Shown here in pieces: positions 37,282 to 43,457 of a stretch of 64,000 nt of DNA. The notes beneath the pieces were generated by a model. That model ran no database searches, was not told the origin of the DNA, and saw only the letters and a program-made list of their open reading frames with translations. This DNA comes from Prochlorococcus marinus subsp. marinus str. CCMP1375 (GTDB lineage Bacteria > Cyanobacteriota > Cyanobacteriia > PCC-6307 > Cyanobiaceae). Every line of letters begins with the position of its first letter. The stretch's first letter is position 1. The translations under genes and the position numbers were made by a program. The DNA is taken from positions 1,054,001-1,118,000 of the forward strand of contig NC_005042.1 in NCBI RefSeq assembly GCF_000007925.1, in the 5' to 3' direction.

Positions 37282-38367
37282 TTAGGACTTAATTGTAAAA
37301 GTTGCCTTCTGCTCATTACCTATAGAAGCGGTTACATTCTTGAAATTAAACCCTAAAGCTCTCAAAGCATGCCAGAAATGTCCTTGAAGGAAGAAAAATC
37401 CAAGATAGTAATGAACATTAGTTAGAGCAGCACGAGCAGAATGCCCCCAAAATGCTGTCGCATCAGAAAGGTCTCCTGTATCAACCCAATAAGGTGAAAT
37501 AGCGAATTTAAATTGCAAAGGCTCTCCATACCATGCTTCTGGATAAACAGTGGTATTAGAAGCACACCAGAAGGCTGCAACTATCGCCATCCAACCTATG
37601 CCTGCAAGAGACCAGGAAAGTACAGCTTCTGCTGAAAGTAATTCTGAACCTTTGAATTTGCTCCACTCACCAAGCTTCTTATCTTCCCAAGGGGTTGATC
37701 CAGCAACAATGTGAAAAGCTCCTCCAGTTATTTCTGCAAAAGCTAAGAAAGCATGACCACCCATGACATCCTCAAGGCTATCGATGGTAATGAAATCAAA
37801 CTGCCTTTGCCAAATCATAGAAAGATCAAGATTGTAATTGACCTGACGAATAGCTCCTAAAGCTGGATCATAAATTCCATGAATCCTTGCCCATTCAACG
37901 AACCAAGCACAAGCAACACCCATGAAAATCAAGTGATGACCAAGAATGAAAGTCTGATTATCAGGATTATTCCACTCAAGCTTGAATTTCTTAGCTTGTA
38001 AAACCTCACTATCTTCTACATTCTCATCAAAAAGAATTCCGTGAAGAAGACCTCCTCCTCCATAAACCATTGAGAGAATAAGGTGCACAATTGCAATAGT
38101 TGCTACACCAACACCTGTCCAAGCACCAGCTTCATCAAAGCCAATACCAATTGAGGCAAGGTGAGCCAAGAATAAAGAGCTTTGGTGCCCCATAGGTATT
38201 TCTGGGTTGTACCTAGCCAACTCCCAAAGAGTGCTACCACCAGCCGCAAAGCAAATCAATCCTGTATGGCCTACATGAGAGGCGATAAATCGGCCAGAGC
38301 GGTTGGTAACCACAGAATTACCAGCCCACCATCCATAGGTAACTTCTGGATTTCCATAGGTCTGCAT
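37282..38367 (-). CDS. Chlorophyll a/b-binding light-harvesting protein Pcb (copy 1)
   Basis: Six-helix thylakoid antenna of the PsbC/IsiA superfamily that binds divinyl chlorophylls a and b in Prochlorococcus. The start MQTYGNPEVTYGWWAGNS is shared by all three copies here, which fixes the ATG at 38367; a frame ten codons longer is upstream leader. Conserved chlorophyll-ligand His blocks include HVGHTGL, GHQSSLFLAHLAS, FILGHHLIFMG, GGHAFLAF and FLQGHFWHALRA. Length is 361 residues. Compared with copies 2 and 3 it has about seven extra residues in the lumenal region after GGAFHI (around TPWEDKKLGEW). It could serve photosystem I or II; that cannot be assigned by eye. Confidence 0.95.
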   Translation of the reverse strand: MQTYGNPEVTYGWWAGNSVVTNRSGRFIASHVGHTGLICFAAGGSTLWELARYNPEIPMGHQSSLFLAHLASIGIGFDEAGAWTGVGVATIAIVHLILSMVYGGGGLLHGILFDENVEDSEVLQAKKFKLEWNNPDNQTFILGHHLIFMGVACAWFVEWARIHGIYDPALGAIRQVNYNLDLSMIWQRQFDFITIDSLEDVMGGHAFLAFAEITGGAFHIVAGSTPWEDKKLGEWSKFKGSELLSAEAVLSWSLAGIGWMAIVAAFWCASNTTVYPEAWYGEPLQFKFAISPYWVDTGDLSDATAFWGHSARAALTNVHYYLGFFFLQGHFWHALRALGFNFKNVTASIGNEQKATFTIKS

Positions 38368-38453: not shown

Positions 38454-38964
38454 GTTTGTGAGAATTTGTGAGAAATATCTTTTAATCTGTAAAAAAAAAC
38501 TGACCTCCTAAGGCTATTTCTCTAAAAATTTTCAATTCTTAATTGCCGAGCAAGAAATTCAAAATGACTGCAGCGCAATGATTTATACAATTAAAGCAAA
38601 AAGTTTTTCTTTAGGGAGCGAGCATCGCACCGTTTAATTATGAAGTCAAAATAAAAAAGTAAAATAAATAAAAAAATCATTAAGAAGTCAAGCAAAGCTG
38701 ACTTGACCAGAAAAATGAGGGAATAAAACTTCACCCTAAGAACTTCTAAAGCTCTTATTTTAAAAATCTCTTGTTGTGGAAAGCGCAAGCATTCAAACTA
38801 ATCAAGGTCAAAAGCACAACATCATATTGAACTGAATGCTAATTAATTAACCAAGAGTTCCTTTTTTATTTTTTCTAGATTTCTTTAATTAAATGTCAAA
38901 AAAACTTTTTCTTGCAAATAGCCTTAAAGTCTAGGTTATAACTTACCTAACTTTTATTGACTTG
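38454..38964. other. Spacer between pcb copy 1 and the divergent small gene
   Basis: About 510 bp. A 65-codon minus-strand frame at 38591-38788 is rich in Phe, Ile, Leu and Lys and looks like a chance frame. I see no tRNA and no clear terminator hairpin. It should carry the promoter of the plus-strand gene at 38965; TATAACTT at 38937-38944 is a possible -10. Confidence 0.5.
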
Positions 38965-39177
38965 ATGATTGATTTCTCGCATTTGCTGGATTTCGCAACG
39001 CAACTACCTCACCCATCAGATATAGGTTTAGTAAAGCCATCAGGTGGGTTCCAACTTCTGCCAGTTGTATTTGGAATACTTGCAATTATTCAAGTGTCTC
39101 AATTCCATTGGTATGCAAGAGACTGTAACGATCCTGAAAAGTTTGAAGGAACGGAAAGGCAAAAATTATCACGTTAA
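38965..39177 (+). CDS. Pcb-linked small membrane protein, copy A (70 aa)
   Basis: Begins MIDFSHLLDFATQLPHPSDI at the ATG at 38965. It has a polar N-terminal segment with the signature HLLDFATQLPHPSDIG-KPSGGF, one hydrophobic helix (about residues 31-48), then an aromatic/charged tail (FHWYARDCNDPEK). It is clearly homologous to the proteins at 41275 and 41606 and more distantly to that at 40552. It is divergent from pcb copy 1 and ends with its own strong terminator. The family is unknown to me. The repeated pairing with pcb genes suggests, but does not prove, a role with the antenna. Confidence 0.82.
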   Translation: MIDFSHLLDFATQLPHPSDIGLVKPSGGFQLLPVVFGILAIIQVSQFHWYARDCNDPEKFEGTERQKLSR

Positions 39178-39354: not shown

Positions 39355-40404
39355 TCAAAGAGTCCTTGGAATACCAAATGGACCAGTTTTATCAAGCAGG
39401 CGCTTGAAATCAAAGCCCATAGCGCGCAATGCATGCCATAGATGGCCTTGAATAAAGAAGAATCCAAGGTAGTAATGAACATTTACCAAAGCCGCTCTAG
39501 TTGTATGGCCTAAGAAAGCTGTACCACCAGGCACAGTATCTATCCAATAAGGAGAAACACCAAACTTAATTTGAAGTACTTCTCCATACCAAGCCTCAGG
39601 ATAAACAGTTGTATTTGTTGCAGCCCAAAAAGCAGCAACACATGCCATCCATCCAATACCAGCTAATGACCAAGAAAGAATTGCTTCCGCTGAAAGTAAT
39701 TCTTTGCCCTTGAATTTTGTATAAGTTCCAATTTGCTTAGTTGCGATATGGAAAGCGCCTCCTCCAAGCTGGAAGAAAGCTAGGAAGGCATGCCCTCCCA
39801 TTACGTCTTCAAGACTGTCAATGGCAAGGAAATCAAATTGATGATTCCAAATCTGAGTGAGGTCAAGATTGTAATTAACTTGACGTATTGCTTCAATGGC
39901 AGGGTCGTAAATTCCATGAATCCTTGCCCATTCAACAAACCATATATTGGCAACACCAAAAAACAACAAATGGTGACCAAGAATAAAGGTTTGATTGTCT
40001 GGGTTGTCCCATTCCAATTTGAACTTTCTAGCTTGTGGTACTTGTGAATCCTGCATATCTCCAGTGAAATATACGGAATGCAAAAGTCCTCCTCCTCCAT
40101 AAACCATAGAGAGGATTAAATGAAGTATCGCGATATTGGCTACACCAACACCAGTCCAGACTCCAGCATCATCAAAGCCAATGCCGACAGATGCCAAGTG
40201 AGCGAGGAAAAGAGAGCTCTGATGACCCATAGGCAATGAAGGGTCAAATCCTGCTAATTCAACAAGCGTGGCTGCACCGCACCCAAAGGCAATAAGTCCT
40301 GTATGAGCTGCATGAGCTGCAATAAATTTGCCTGAGCGGTTGGTGACTCCAGAATTACCAGCCCACCACCCGTAGGTGACGTTTGGGTTTCCGTAGGTCT
40401 GCAT
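39355..40404 (-). CDS. Chlorophyll a/b-binding light-harvesting protein Pcb (copy 2)
   Basis: A 349-residue Pcb antenna protein starting MQTYGNPNVTYGWWAGNS, with the same His-rich helix blocks as copy 1 (HAAHTGL, GHQSSLFLAHLAS, FILGHHLLFFG, GGHAFLAFFQ, FIQGHLWHALRA). The lumenal loop is the short form (GGAFHIATKQIGTYTKFKG). The tail ends KTGPFGIPRTL. Its 5' leader is nearly identical to that of copy 3 over about 30 bp before the ATG, although the coding sequences differ, which suggests a shared or converted promoter segment. It is flanked by its own terminator and upstream box. Confidence 0.95.
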   Translation of the reverse strand: MQTYGNPNVTYGWWAGNSGVTNRSGKFIAAHAAHTGLIAFGCGAATLVELAGFDPSLPMGHQSSLFLAHLASVGIGFDDAGVWTGVGVANIAILHLILSMVYGGGGLLHSVYFTGDMQDSQVPQARKFKLEWDNPDNQTFILGHHLLFFGVANIWFVEWARIHGIYDPAIEAIRQVNYNLDLTQIWNHQFDFLAIDSLEDVMGGHAFLAFFQLGGGAFHIATKQIGTYTKFKGKELLSAEAILSWSLAGIGWMACVAAFWAATNTTVYPEAWYGEVLQIKFGVSPYWIDTVPGGTAFLGHTTRAALVNVHYYLGFFFIQGHLWHALRAMGFDFKRLLDKTGPFGIPRTL

Positions 40405-40472
40405 AATTTTTTTTGAGCGAAAAAGGCGCTATTCCCCATGAACACTACATGGTGCTTCCTTAAAATGTACGA

Positions 40473-40491: not shown

Positions 40492-40551
40492 CTAAGAGAA
40501 ATAAAAAAACATTTTTCAACATGCAACGAGATGAGATTTTCTGTACTCTTT

Positions 40552-40743
40552 ATGTATATCTATAAGGAAATTTCCCAACAAAACCTCGATTCAATAATTT
40601 CTCTGCTTCACTCATCAGATTTATTAGCAACTATTACTGTTGTTGGTTTCAATACTCTTGCAGCAATTTTTGGAGTGATCACTTTTATTCAAGTGACTCA
40701 TTTTGTTTACTATGGATTCGATGCAAATGATCCATCCAACTAA
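40552..40743 (+). CDS. Pcb-linked small membrane protein, copy B (63 aa, divergent)
   Basis: From the ATG at 40552 the product is 63 residues. The second half (SSDLLATITVVGFNTLAAIF, then GVITFIQVTHFVYYGFDAND) aligns with copy A over the helix and the ND-P tail, while the N-terminal HLLDFATQLPHPSD signature is worn to LDSIISLLHSSD. An ATG at 40531 is also possible. Frames opening further upstream would run through the pcb promoter box and are unlikely. It diverges from pcb copy 2 and has its own terminator, as copy A does. Confidence 0.7.
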   Translation: MYIYKEISQQNLDSIISLLHSSDLLATITVVGFNTLAAIFGVITFIQVTHFVYYGFDANDPSN

Positions 40744-40814: not shown

Positions 40815-41274
40815 AAAGTCAAATAGTGCTGCTTAATTTAAGAAATCCATTAAGAAAGCCTCTAAAAGTCAAGTTTTTAATCAAGAAAAATTCAATAAAG
40901 TTTTTTCCCATTAAAACAACCAGATATTTGAAAGGCAAAACAGTCAAATTTGATCTCAAAAAATTTTTGATTATCTCGGAGATTTTTTGCGTTTTAGAAC
41001 CATTAAGCCTAATGACTACCAACTGGGCAACTATTAGCAAAGTCTTAGTTCCCGTTAAGAGAAATAATTATTTTGGGACTGTGGTGGTGATGGCCCAAAA
41101 TAATTTCCGCAACAAATTCATTTATTTGACCTTGGTATATAAATATTTTTATTTGTTTGTCAATGTAAGTAGAGTTTTAGCCTCTTTTGGAAAGCTGATG
41201 TAAAATCCTCTGAGCGCGGGTTTGGCAAAGTGGCCACCTGGGTTATCTATAAACAAATTTGCAAACCATCTCAA
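40815..41274. other. Spacer before small protein copy C
   Basis: About 460 bp. Frames of 125 codons (plus) and 73 codons (minus) exist here but are rich in Lys, Phe and Asn, lack plausible starts and overlap each other, so I do not call them. A locally GC-richer patch (41213-41245, gagcgcgggtttggcaaagt onward) stands out against the AT-rich background. No tRNA fold could be made from it. Confidence 0.45.
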
Positions 41275-41472
41275 ATGATTATTGATCCAACTCATTTACT
41301 TGATTTCGCCACCCAATTACCTCATCCATCTGACATTGGAATCATTAAACCTACCGGAGGTTTCAATTTAGGAGCTGCTCTTTGTGGTTTAGGTGCATTC
41401 TTCGGTGCTTCTCAATTCTTCTATTACTCAGATGATTCTAAGAGAATTGATCCTTGGGCAAAAAGAGATTGA
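41275..41472 (+). CDS. Pcb-linked small membrane protein, copy C (65 aa)
   Basis: Starts at the ATG at 41275 with MIIDPTHLLDFATQLPHPSD. The shared signature runs to IIKPTGGFNLGAAL, then a Gly/Ala/Phe-rich helix (about residues 31-50, LGAFFGASQFFYY) and the tail SDDSKRIDPWAKRD. A longer in-frame start at 41230 would add 15 residues with no counterpart in copies A and D. Copy D downstream is almost the same protein but differs at many third codon positions, evidence that both are translated and under purifying selection. Confidence 0.82.
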   Translation: MIIDPTHLLDFATQLPHPSDIGIIKPTGGFNLGAALCGLGAFFGASQFFYYSDDSKRIDPWAKRD

Positions 41473-41507
41473 TCAATAGGTTCTAGGAAATAAAAACCGA
41501 AAATCTC

Positions 41508-41567
41508 ATTGCAAAGCACCTTCTATTTAAATATCAATTAAATTAAATAGAAGGTGCTTTGCAATGC
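41508..41567. repeat. Perfect 24 bp inverted repeat between copies C and D
   Basis: Left arm 41508-41531 (begins CATTGCAAAGCACCTTCTAT) and right arm 41544-41567 are exact reverse complements, separated by 12 nt. As RNA this would form a very long hairpin. It lacks the T-run of an ordinary terminator and is much longer than the other hairpins in the region. It could block read-through, be a processing site, protect an mRNA end or be a small RNA. Confidence 0.85.
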
Positions 41568-41605
41568 TTCCCATATATCTTTATAGAAAATTGCATTATT
41601 CCTAA

Positions 41606-41773
41606 ATGATCGATCCATCTCATTTACTTGATTTCGCTACTCAACTCCCTCATCCTTCAGATATTGGAATCATCAAACCATCTGGCGGATTTAACTTAGG
41701 AGCAGCTTTAGCTGGTCTGGGTGCTTTTTTTGGAGCCTCCCAATTCTTTTACTACGCCCAACAAAAAGATTGA
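41606..41773 (+). CDS. Pcb-linked small membrane protein, copy D (55 aa)
   Basis: Read directly from the DNA: ATG at 41606, TGA at 41771-41773. The protein starts MIDPSHLLDFATQLPHPSDI, contains KPSGGFNLGAALAGLGAFFG and ends FFYYAQQKD. Over about 50 residues it differs from copy C at only three positions plus the tail. It has the same one-helix plan. It ends in a strong bidirectional terminator shared with convergent pcb copy 3. Confidence 0.85.
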   Translation: MIDPSHLLDFATQLPHPSDIGIIKPSGGFNLGAALAGLGAFFGASQFFYYAQQKD

Positions 41774-41892: not shown

Positions 41893-42951
41893 TTAAGAAG
41901 AAGTAGATTCAGTTAAACCTCCTATTGCCTTAGCAATTCTTCTAAAATCAAAGCCTAAAGCACGCAAAGCATGCCATAAATGCCCTTGAAGACAGAAAAA
42001 TGCAAAGTAATACTGCACATTCACTAAGGCTGCCCTTGATGTATGTCCAAAGAAATACTTGCAATCTGAAGTATCTCCAGTATCAGCCCAGTAGGGAGAG
42101 ATGCCAAATTTGAATTCCAATGGCTCCCCATACCACTCTGTTGGATAAACAGTAGTATTAGAAGCTGCCCAGAATGCTGCGACTACACCCATAAGGAATA
42201 GACCAGCTAACGACCAAGAAAGAACTGCCTCTGCAGATAGCAATCCATCCCCTTTGAATTTGGTGTATTCACCAATTTGTCGTGTTGCTATATGGAAAGC
42301 ACCGCCACTTATTTGTAAGAAGGCCAAAAATGCGTGACCACTCATTACATCTTCTAGACTATCAATCTTGATGAAATCAAATTGATGCCCCCATACCATT
42401 CCAAAATCTCCATATCCAGGGAAAATTGTACGAACCTCCCCTAAAGCTGGATCATAAATTCCATGGACTCTTGCCCATTCAACGAACCAAATATTGGCTA
42501 CCCCTAAGAAGATCAAATGATGACCAAGGATAAAAGTCAGATTATTTGGGTTGTCCCATTCCAACTTAAATTTATCTACTCGGCCAATTGGACCTTCGTT
42601 TAGATCTGGGTCGAAGAAAAGTGAGTGTGCTAATCCTGCTCCGCCATAAACCATTGAAAAGATTAGGTGGAAAATTGCAATAGTTGCAACACCTGCTCCT
42701 GTCCAAACACCAGCTTCATCAAAGCCAATTCCAAGAGAGGCTAAATGAGAGAGGTATATAGAGCTTTGATGCCCCATTGGTACTGAGGAATCAAAACGTG
42801 AAAGTTCCCATAGACAACTTGCACCAGTTGCGAAGCAAATAATTCCTGTATGACCAACATGAGAGCCAATAAATCGGCCTGCTCGGTTGGTAACTACAGA
42901 ATTACCAACCCACCACCCATAGGTGACATCTGGGTTTCCGTAGGTCTGCAT
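41893..42951 (-). CDS. Chlorophyll a/b-binding light-harvesting protein Pcb (copy 3)
   Basis: A 352-residue Pcb antenna starting MQTYGNPDVTYGWWVGNS. Chlorophyll-ligand blocks match the other copies (HVGHTGI, GHQSSIYLSHLAS, FILGHHLIFLG, SGHAFLAFLQ, CLQGHLWHALRA). Distinct features are the DPDLNEGPIGRVDKF loop, the EVRTIFPGYGDFGMVWGH segment where copies 1 and 2 have a NYNLDL-type loop, and the tail IGGLTESTSS. It is the most divergent of the three by eye. Its leader is nearly the same as that of copy 2. Confidence 0.95.
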   Translation of the reverse strand: MQTYGNPDVTYGWWVGNSVVTNRAGRFIGSHVGHTGIICFATGASCLWELSRFDSSVPMGHQSSIYLSHLASLGIGFDEAGVWTGAGVATIAIFHLIFSMVYGGAGLAHSLFFDPDLNEGPIGRVDKFKLEWDNPNNLTFILGHHLIFLGVANIWFVEWARVHGIYDPALGEVRTIFPGYGDFGMVWGHQFDFIKIDSLEDVMSGHAFLAFLQISGGAFHIATRQIGEYTKFKGDGLLSAEAVLSWSLAGLFLMGVVAAFWAASNTTVYPTEWYGEPLEFKFGISPYWADTGDTSDCKYFFGHTSRAALVNVQYYFAFFCLQGHLWHALRALGFDFRRIAKAIGGLTESTSS

Positions 42952-43019
42952 AATTTTTTTTGAGCGAGAAAGGCGCTATACCTGATGAAGGATACATGCT
43001 GTGCAATAGATATCGTCGG

Positions 43020-43228: not shown

Positions 43229-43400
43229 GGGGTTTTAAATAAAGCGAAACGGAAAGAACTAAAAAATAAGATCGCACTAGCCAAATAATTATAAATTTCT
43301 TTAATGCCAAAAAGATAGGTCCGAAAAATCAAAAAAAAACCTTTCAAAAGCACAAAAGGAATCGAATCTCAATCAAATCAAATAGCAACTTTCATTAAAT

Positions 43401-43440
43401 GCTTTACAAAGCTTTACAAAATATGTAATAATGCTTTACA
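43401..43440 (+). promoter_or_regulatory. Triple GCTTTACA repeat upstream of hli
   Basis: GCTTTACA occurs at 43401-43408, 43411-43418 and 43433-43440, spaced 10 and 22 bp, close to one and two helical turns, ending 17 bp before the first hli ATG. This looks like a tandem operator or overlapping -35 elements controlling the two hli genes. Confidence 0.45.
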
Positions 43441-43457
43441 TAACTTCACTACTTCTC

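Follow-up and report, generated by a model that had tools for sequence, protein, structure and literature searches.

Conserved small genes for predicted membrane proteins lie among the pcb antenna genes of low-light Prochlorococcus

Results

Four small ORFs interleave with three pcb genes

We analysed a 64,000-nucleotide stretch of the genome of Prochlorococcus marinus subsp. marinus str. CCMP1375, the strain SS120 (NC_005042.1, positions 1,054,001 to 1,118,000; hereafter the window, whose numbering is used unless stated otherwise). Four related ORFs, here called A, B, C and D, lie on the plus strand between three minus-strand pcb genes. Including a copy outside the window, the genome, a single contig of 1,751,080 bp, carries five members of this family:

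37282..38367, minus strand: pcb antenna gene, putatively pcbD by gene order
38962..39177, plus strand: copy A, a paralogue of the C/D family; its orthologues start at ATG 38965
39355..40404, minus strand: pcb antenna gene, putatively pcbB by gene order
about 40531..40743, plus strand: copy B, a divergent member without the PHPSDIG segment; start uncertain
41218..41245, plus strand: 28-bp non-coding element (GGGTTTGGCAAAGTGGCCACCTGGGTTA) upstream of C, followed by a -10-like TATCTATAA; conserved across genera
41275..41472, plus strand: copy C, a predicted small membrane protein of 65 aa with the conserved tail SDDSKRIDPWAKRD
41507..41566, no strand assigned: inverted repeat between C and D, perfect over 24 bp and with a 12-nt loop
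41606..41773, plus strand: copy D, duplicated from C, 55 aa, lacking the long tail
41893..42951, minus strand: pcb antenna gene, putatively pcbH by gene order
genome 1,343,956-1,344,147: fifth copy, almost the same as A; it follows closely after an isolated pcb gene on the same strand

The names pcbD, pcbB and pcbH, as well as pcbE for the isolated gene, are provisional, being taken from the RefSeq numbering in PMC2644788 together with gene order. As copies A to D are opposite in strand to the neighbouring pcb genes of the window, they are not co-transcribed with them there. At the start of B, an ATA stands in place of a relative's ATG, and the upstream part of the frame contains stops in relatives; B may have been shortened in this clade or be decaying there.

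C and D are protein-coding genes under purifying selection

An earlier note on this DNA had described C and D as near-identical proteins encoded by DNA with scattered synonymous changes, and its coordinates, translations and quoted LPHP codons were all correct. The two products differ at three residues over 50 aligned codons (T/S, T/S and C/A), as the note had estimated, and C has one additional Ile at position 2 that was seen in this genome only. The 32 nucleotide differences are distributed over codon positions 1, 2 and 3 as 6, 1 and 25, bearing out the reported abundance of third-position changes (binomial p = 2.7e-7 for at least 25 of 32 by chance). Differences affected 26 of 35 synonymous sites versus 6 of 115 nonsynonymous sites (pS 0.74, pN 0.05; Fisher p = 4e-16). 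Nei-Gojobori estimates were a dS of about 3.5 and a dN of 0.054, giving a ratio of 0.015 that is only rough because dS is saturated. Comparison of A with its second copy gave a similar pattern, with 1 amino-acid and 17 base differences over 69 codons.

Two checks named in the earlier note, dN/dS across strains and a search for frameshifts, both agreed with its reading of purifying selection on a translated product. Pairwise NG86 estimates for strain pairs with usable dS gave a median dN/dS of 0.055 for C, 0.057 for D and 0.056 for A (maximum below 0.28), far from 1, and no frameshift was seen in the aligned copies of C or D. Selection both within the genome and across strains argues that these small frames are real genes, and we regard it as essentially certain that C and D are strongly conserved protein-coding genes.

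The C/D pair is an old duplication

In a tree of the family, all D copies formed one clade (support 100/98) nested inside a clade of C copies (97/88), and the pair therefore derives from an old duplication and not from recent copying, as had been argued from the window; both genes also keep their order between pcb genes in many genomes. Together, dS, dN/dS and the tree rule out recent copying or a pseudogene. D was found in 11 of the 14 genomes of the GTDB genus, adjoining C in the same pcb interval.

Across genera the tail of C, SDDSKRIDPWA, hardly changes. This is the ancestral state; D has lost it and ends in a few residues that vary (AQQKD, ANLKD, ANAKD or ANSKD). The proposal that the copies specialise at the end of the protein stands insofar as the tails differ as quoted and only one keeps the ancestral form, but the promoter region has diverged too.

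A conserved element upstream of C and an inverted repeat downstream

Six genomes from four genera each contain the 28-bp element upstream of C a single time, with 0-1 mismatches, and we could recognise it upstream of 40 of 50 C copies. It is not coding, because its frame relative to the ATG varies; this variable frame, in upstream DNA that is itself conserved, also ruled out an N-terminal extension of C from GTG 41230. A genome-wide regulon site was excluded by the single site per genome. Being near letter-perfect across four genera yet confined to one occurrence in each genome, the element resembles an operator or promoter element that serves a single gene. Several strains have degenerate versions of it upstream of D. 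Other subtypes of the family have different conserved upstream motifs, and one that was tested genome-wide occurred mostly upstream of family members.

The inverted repeat between C and D, which does not recur in full elsewhere in the genome, gave an RNA fold z-score of -6.3 and is probably a terminator or mRNA hairpin. In several relatives, hairpins that differ in sequence are predicted at this position. An Rfam search of the cluster returned no hits.

A wider family of small proteins with a shared N-terminal motif

What had been noted from the window did not extend to the wider family, to its association with pcb clusters or to the lineages that carry it. Proteins of the family are 55-106 aa long. 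In subtypes A, C, D and E, an N-terminal segment containing the near-invariant motif LPHPSDIG-KPSGGF, whose PHPSD has an invariant His, is followed by a hydrophobic helix; the tails tell the subtypes apart. The motif is absent from B and from hybrids, B-like/E forms that occur in further genera including the GTDB genus g56, which looks like LLI. An amphipathic N-terminal segment and one hydrophobic helix are predicted, and AF2 placed the helix at residues 32-52 with good local but low overall confidence (pLDDT 71, pTM 0.35; mean pLDDT of two family models 71 and 64, weak overall). We infer that C and D are membrane-located, as single-helix members of a lineage-specific, uncharacterised family.

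Subtype E, of about 106 aa with two helices, occurs in other low-light clades. In such two-helix relatives (L054:6001-6321, L051:6001-6321 and L109:4286-4603, among others), the second helix ends in AGPEKIFFPLGL. They often lie away from pcb genes, gave no family match and have a conserved upstream motif of their own (CAAGTTTGTAACGATCTC).

No credible match of C and D to known photosynthetic families

Sequence searches of Pfam, NCBIfam, PHROGs and the PDB, with single proteins and with profiles, gave no credible match to the family: none of 52 members matched Pfam, and no matching PDB chain was found. No phage-borne copy appeared in viral_contigs or phage records. We found no paper naming these loci in the searchable literature, which takes in few subscription papers on the SS120 pcb genes, and found no description of the family there or in databases.

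Three known families bear comparison. Pcb/IsiA proteins (CP43-like, PF00421) are the genomic neighbours, and the family occurs in the same low-light lineages with many pcb genes; but Pcbs are multi-helix pigment proteins of about 350 aa, whereas a single helix is predicted for C and D, which do not resemble Pcbs in sequence, and membership was rejected given the absent Pfam match and a size of merely 55-106 aa. Hlips (Hlip/CAB, PF00504) are likewise small one-helix proteins, and two hli-like genes lie about 0.5 kb past the third pcb gene of the window; the ExxNGRxAMxGF motif is, however, absent from our alignments, as is any Pfam match. Just upstream of these hli-like genes, at 43397-43450, are tandem TTTACA repeats reminiscent of HLR1, the site that RpaB binds in other cyanobacteria.

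PsbJ (PF01788) and other low-molecular-weight PSII subunits, which act at subunit interfaces, are also short with a single membrane helix. C and D might accordingly be lineage-specific small PSII or PSI core subunits of low-light Prochlorococcus, lying near pcb through similar regulation or shared duplications. Their size and one-helix form fit this, as does a very weak similarity to PsbJ over the helix. We nonetheless consider it fairly unlikely: hhalign gave PsbJ a probability of 43% with profile A2, over 23 columns of the helix alone, 3% with A4 and 15% with the whole family. PsbJ membership was rejected on this and on the lack of a Pfam match; the genome carries its own PsbJ, and the C/D family is restricted to few lineages.

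The family tracks expanded pcb gene sets

Of 300 genomes sampled from the GTDB family, 77 carried a member, or 78 when the E profile was used. Nearly all carriers have an expanded pcb set; sampled genomes in which pcb genes are few or absent yielded no member. We counted Pcb/CP43 hits in a set of near-complete genomes and obtained 6-9 in 18 of 19 carriers and at most three in 15 of 15 non-carriers (Fisher p = 9e-9, a value that ignores shared ancestry). The genome studied here has nine such hits, which we read as eight Pcb proteins and CP43. Class-level hits outside the GTDB family were at chance level (E 0.01-0.1), as were a few within it.

The data suggest that non-carriers include HL Prochlorococcus, LLIV and Synechococcus. 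HL-like and Synechococcus-like genomes share the same photosystem cores, and the absence of the family from them, together with its tracking of pcb copy number, counts against a core subunit. The distribution mirrors the published history of pcb copy number, in which copies were gained in the LLVII grade, kept in later LL clades and lost in HL (PMC11559063). Three genomes of g56 (G154, G200 and G265) lack copy C and have a two-helix relative only; G154 and G200 also have fewer pcb genes, with six and three Pcb/CP43 hits, respectively. The g56 pattern is consistent with deletion of the cluster.

Across the assessable loci of our contig collection, those within 1 kb of a pcb gene were 49/49 for C, 11/11 for D, 2/2 for X, 21/31 for A and 2/5 for E, counts that overstate independence because cells that are nearly identical supplied many of the C loci. 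Roughly one in three A copies and the majority of assessable E relatives thus lie away from pcb, which would suit a core subunit and would also suit a membrane-protein family unrelated to the antenna (e.g. stress or regulatory) that fell into the pcb cluster by chance and was duplicated along with it. We hold this last explanation to be very improbable, given that C and D invariably adjoin pcb genes in many genera and that a copy of A also follows a separate, non-clustered pcb gene.

A possible role in the low-light Pcb antenna

Both genomic linkage to pcb genes and co-occurrence with expanded pcb sets were found, as would be expected of an accessory subunit of the Pcb antenna. By association, C and D may well be such subunits in the low-light antenna, small and with a single helix, and probably serve as linkers or assembly helpers. 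This reading draws on purifying selection, adjacency to pcb, pcb number in carriers and the match to the history in PMC11559063; on the near-identical A copy after an isolated, same-strand pcb gene; and on the predicted amphipathic segment and single helix and the upstream element unique to C. Against it stand the A copies (about a third) and E-type relatives (3 of 5 assessable) that are not beside pcb, a co-distribution that is phylogenetically confounded, with few independent gains and losses, the opposite strand of the pcb genes in the window and the weak AF2 model.

In such a subunit, the conserved amphipathic N-terminal segment and the LPHPSDIG-KPSGGF motif would dock on a Pcb or on the rim of the reaction centre, and the helix would sit in the membrane between neighbouring Pcbs or where antenna and core meet, perhaps with a bound chlorophyll. 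The surface tail could set which Pcb or photosystem each paralogue serves. As D has lost the tail and its upstream element has degenerated, we would expect it to serve a different partner or condition.

The same synteny and distribution would also fit factors for assembly, insertion or chlorophyll delivery that act on Pcb transiently, like Hlips, and are not stoichiometric subunits; the invariant His of PHPSD could then bind pigment. Such a role seems unlikely to us in view of the absent Hlip/CAB motif and Pfam match, and several subtypes with conserved tails suggest dedicated partners, not one general factor.

Low-light Prochlorococcus dominates the deep lit ocean, a success credited to its multiplied Pcb antennae, and a conserved family of small proteins passed on together with those antennae would be a component so far missing from the picture of this machine. 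Extending the accessory-subunit reading, we tentatively raise the possibility that the low-light antenna contains more than Pcb proteins: subsets of the Pcbs would have dedicated single-helix subunits of their own, drawn from this paralogue-rich, previously undescribed family, which other low-light clades have in a two-helix version, and the tails would set the partner or photosystem and so diversify the antenna. The family could account for the sorting of as many as eight similar Pcbs among photosystems, and it offers specific proteins to seek in supercomplex structures and proteomes.

Four pcb genes of this genome (A, C, F and G by order) have no family copy nearby. They include those for PcbC and PcbG, which are reported to be linked to PSI (Bibby 2003), a weak hint that the family belongs to the PSII-side antenna. 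The pcbD and pcbE loci carry A and its twin, and PcbD and PcbE rose together in the SS120 proteome after azaserine (PMC5451487). The second and third pcb genes of the window share a conserved leader, with ATAGCGCCTTTYTCGCTCAAAAAAAATT before the ATG (40390-40460 and 42940-43010).
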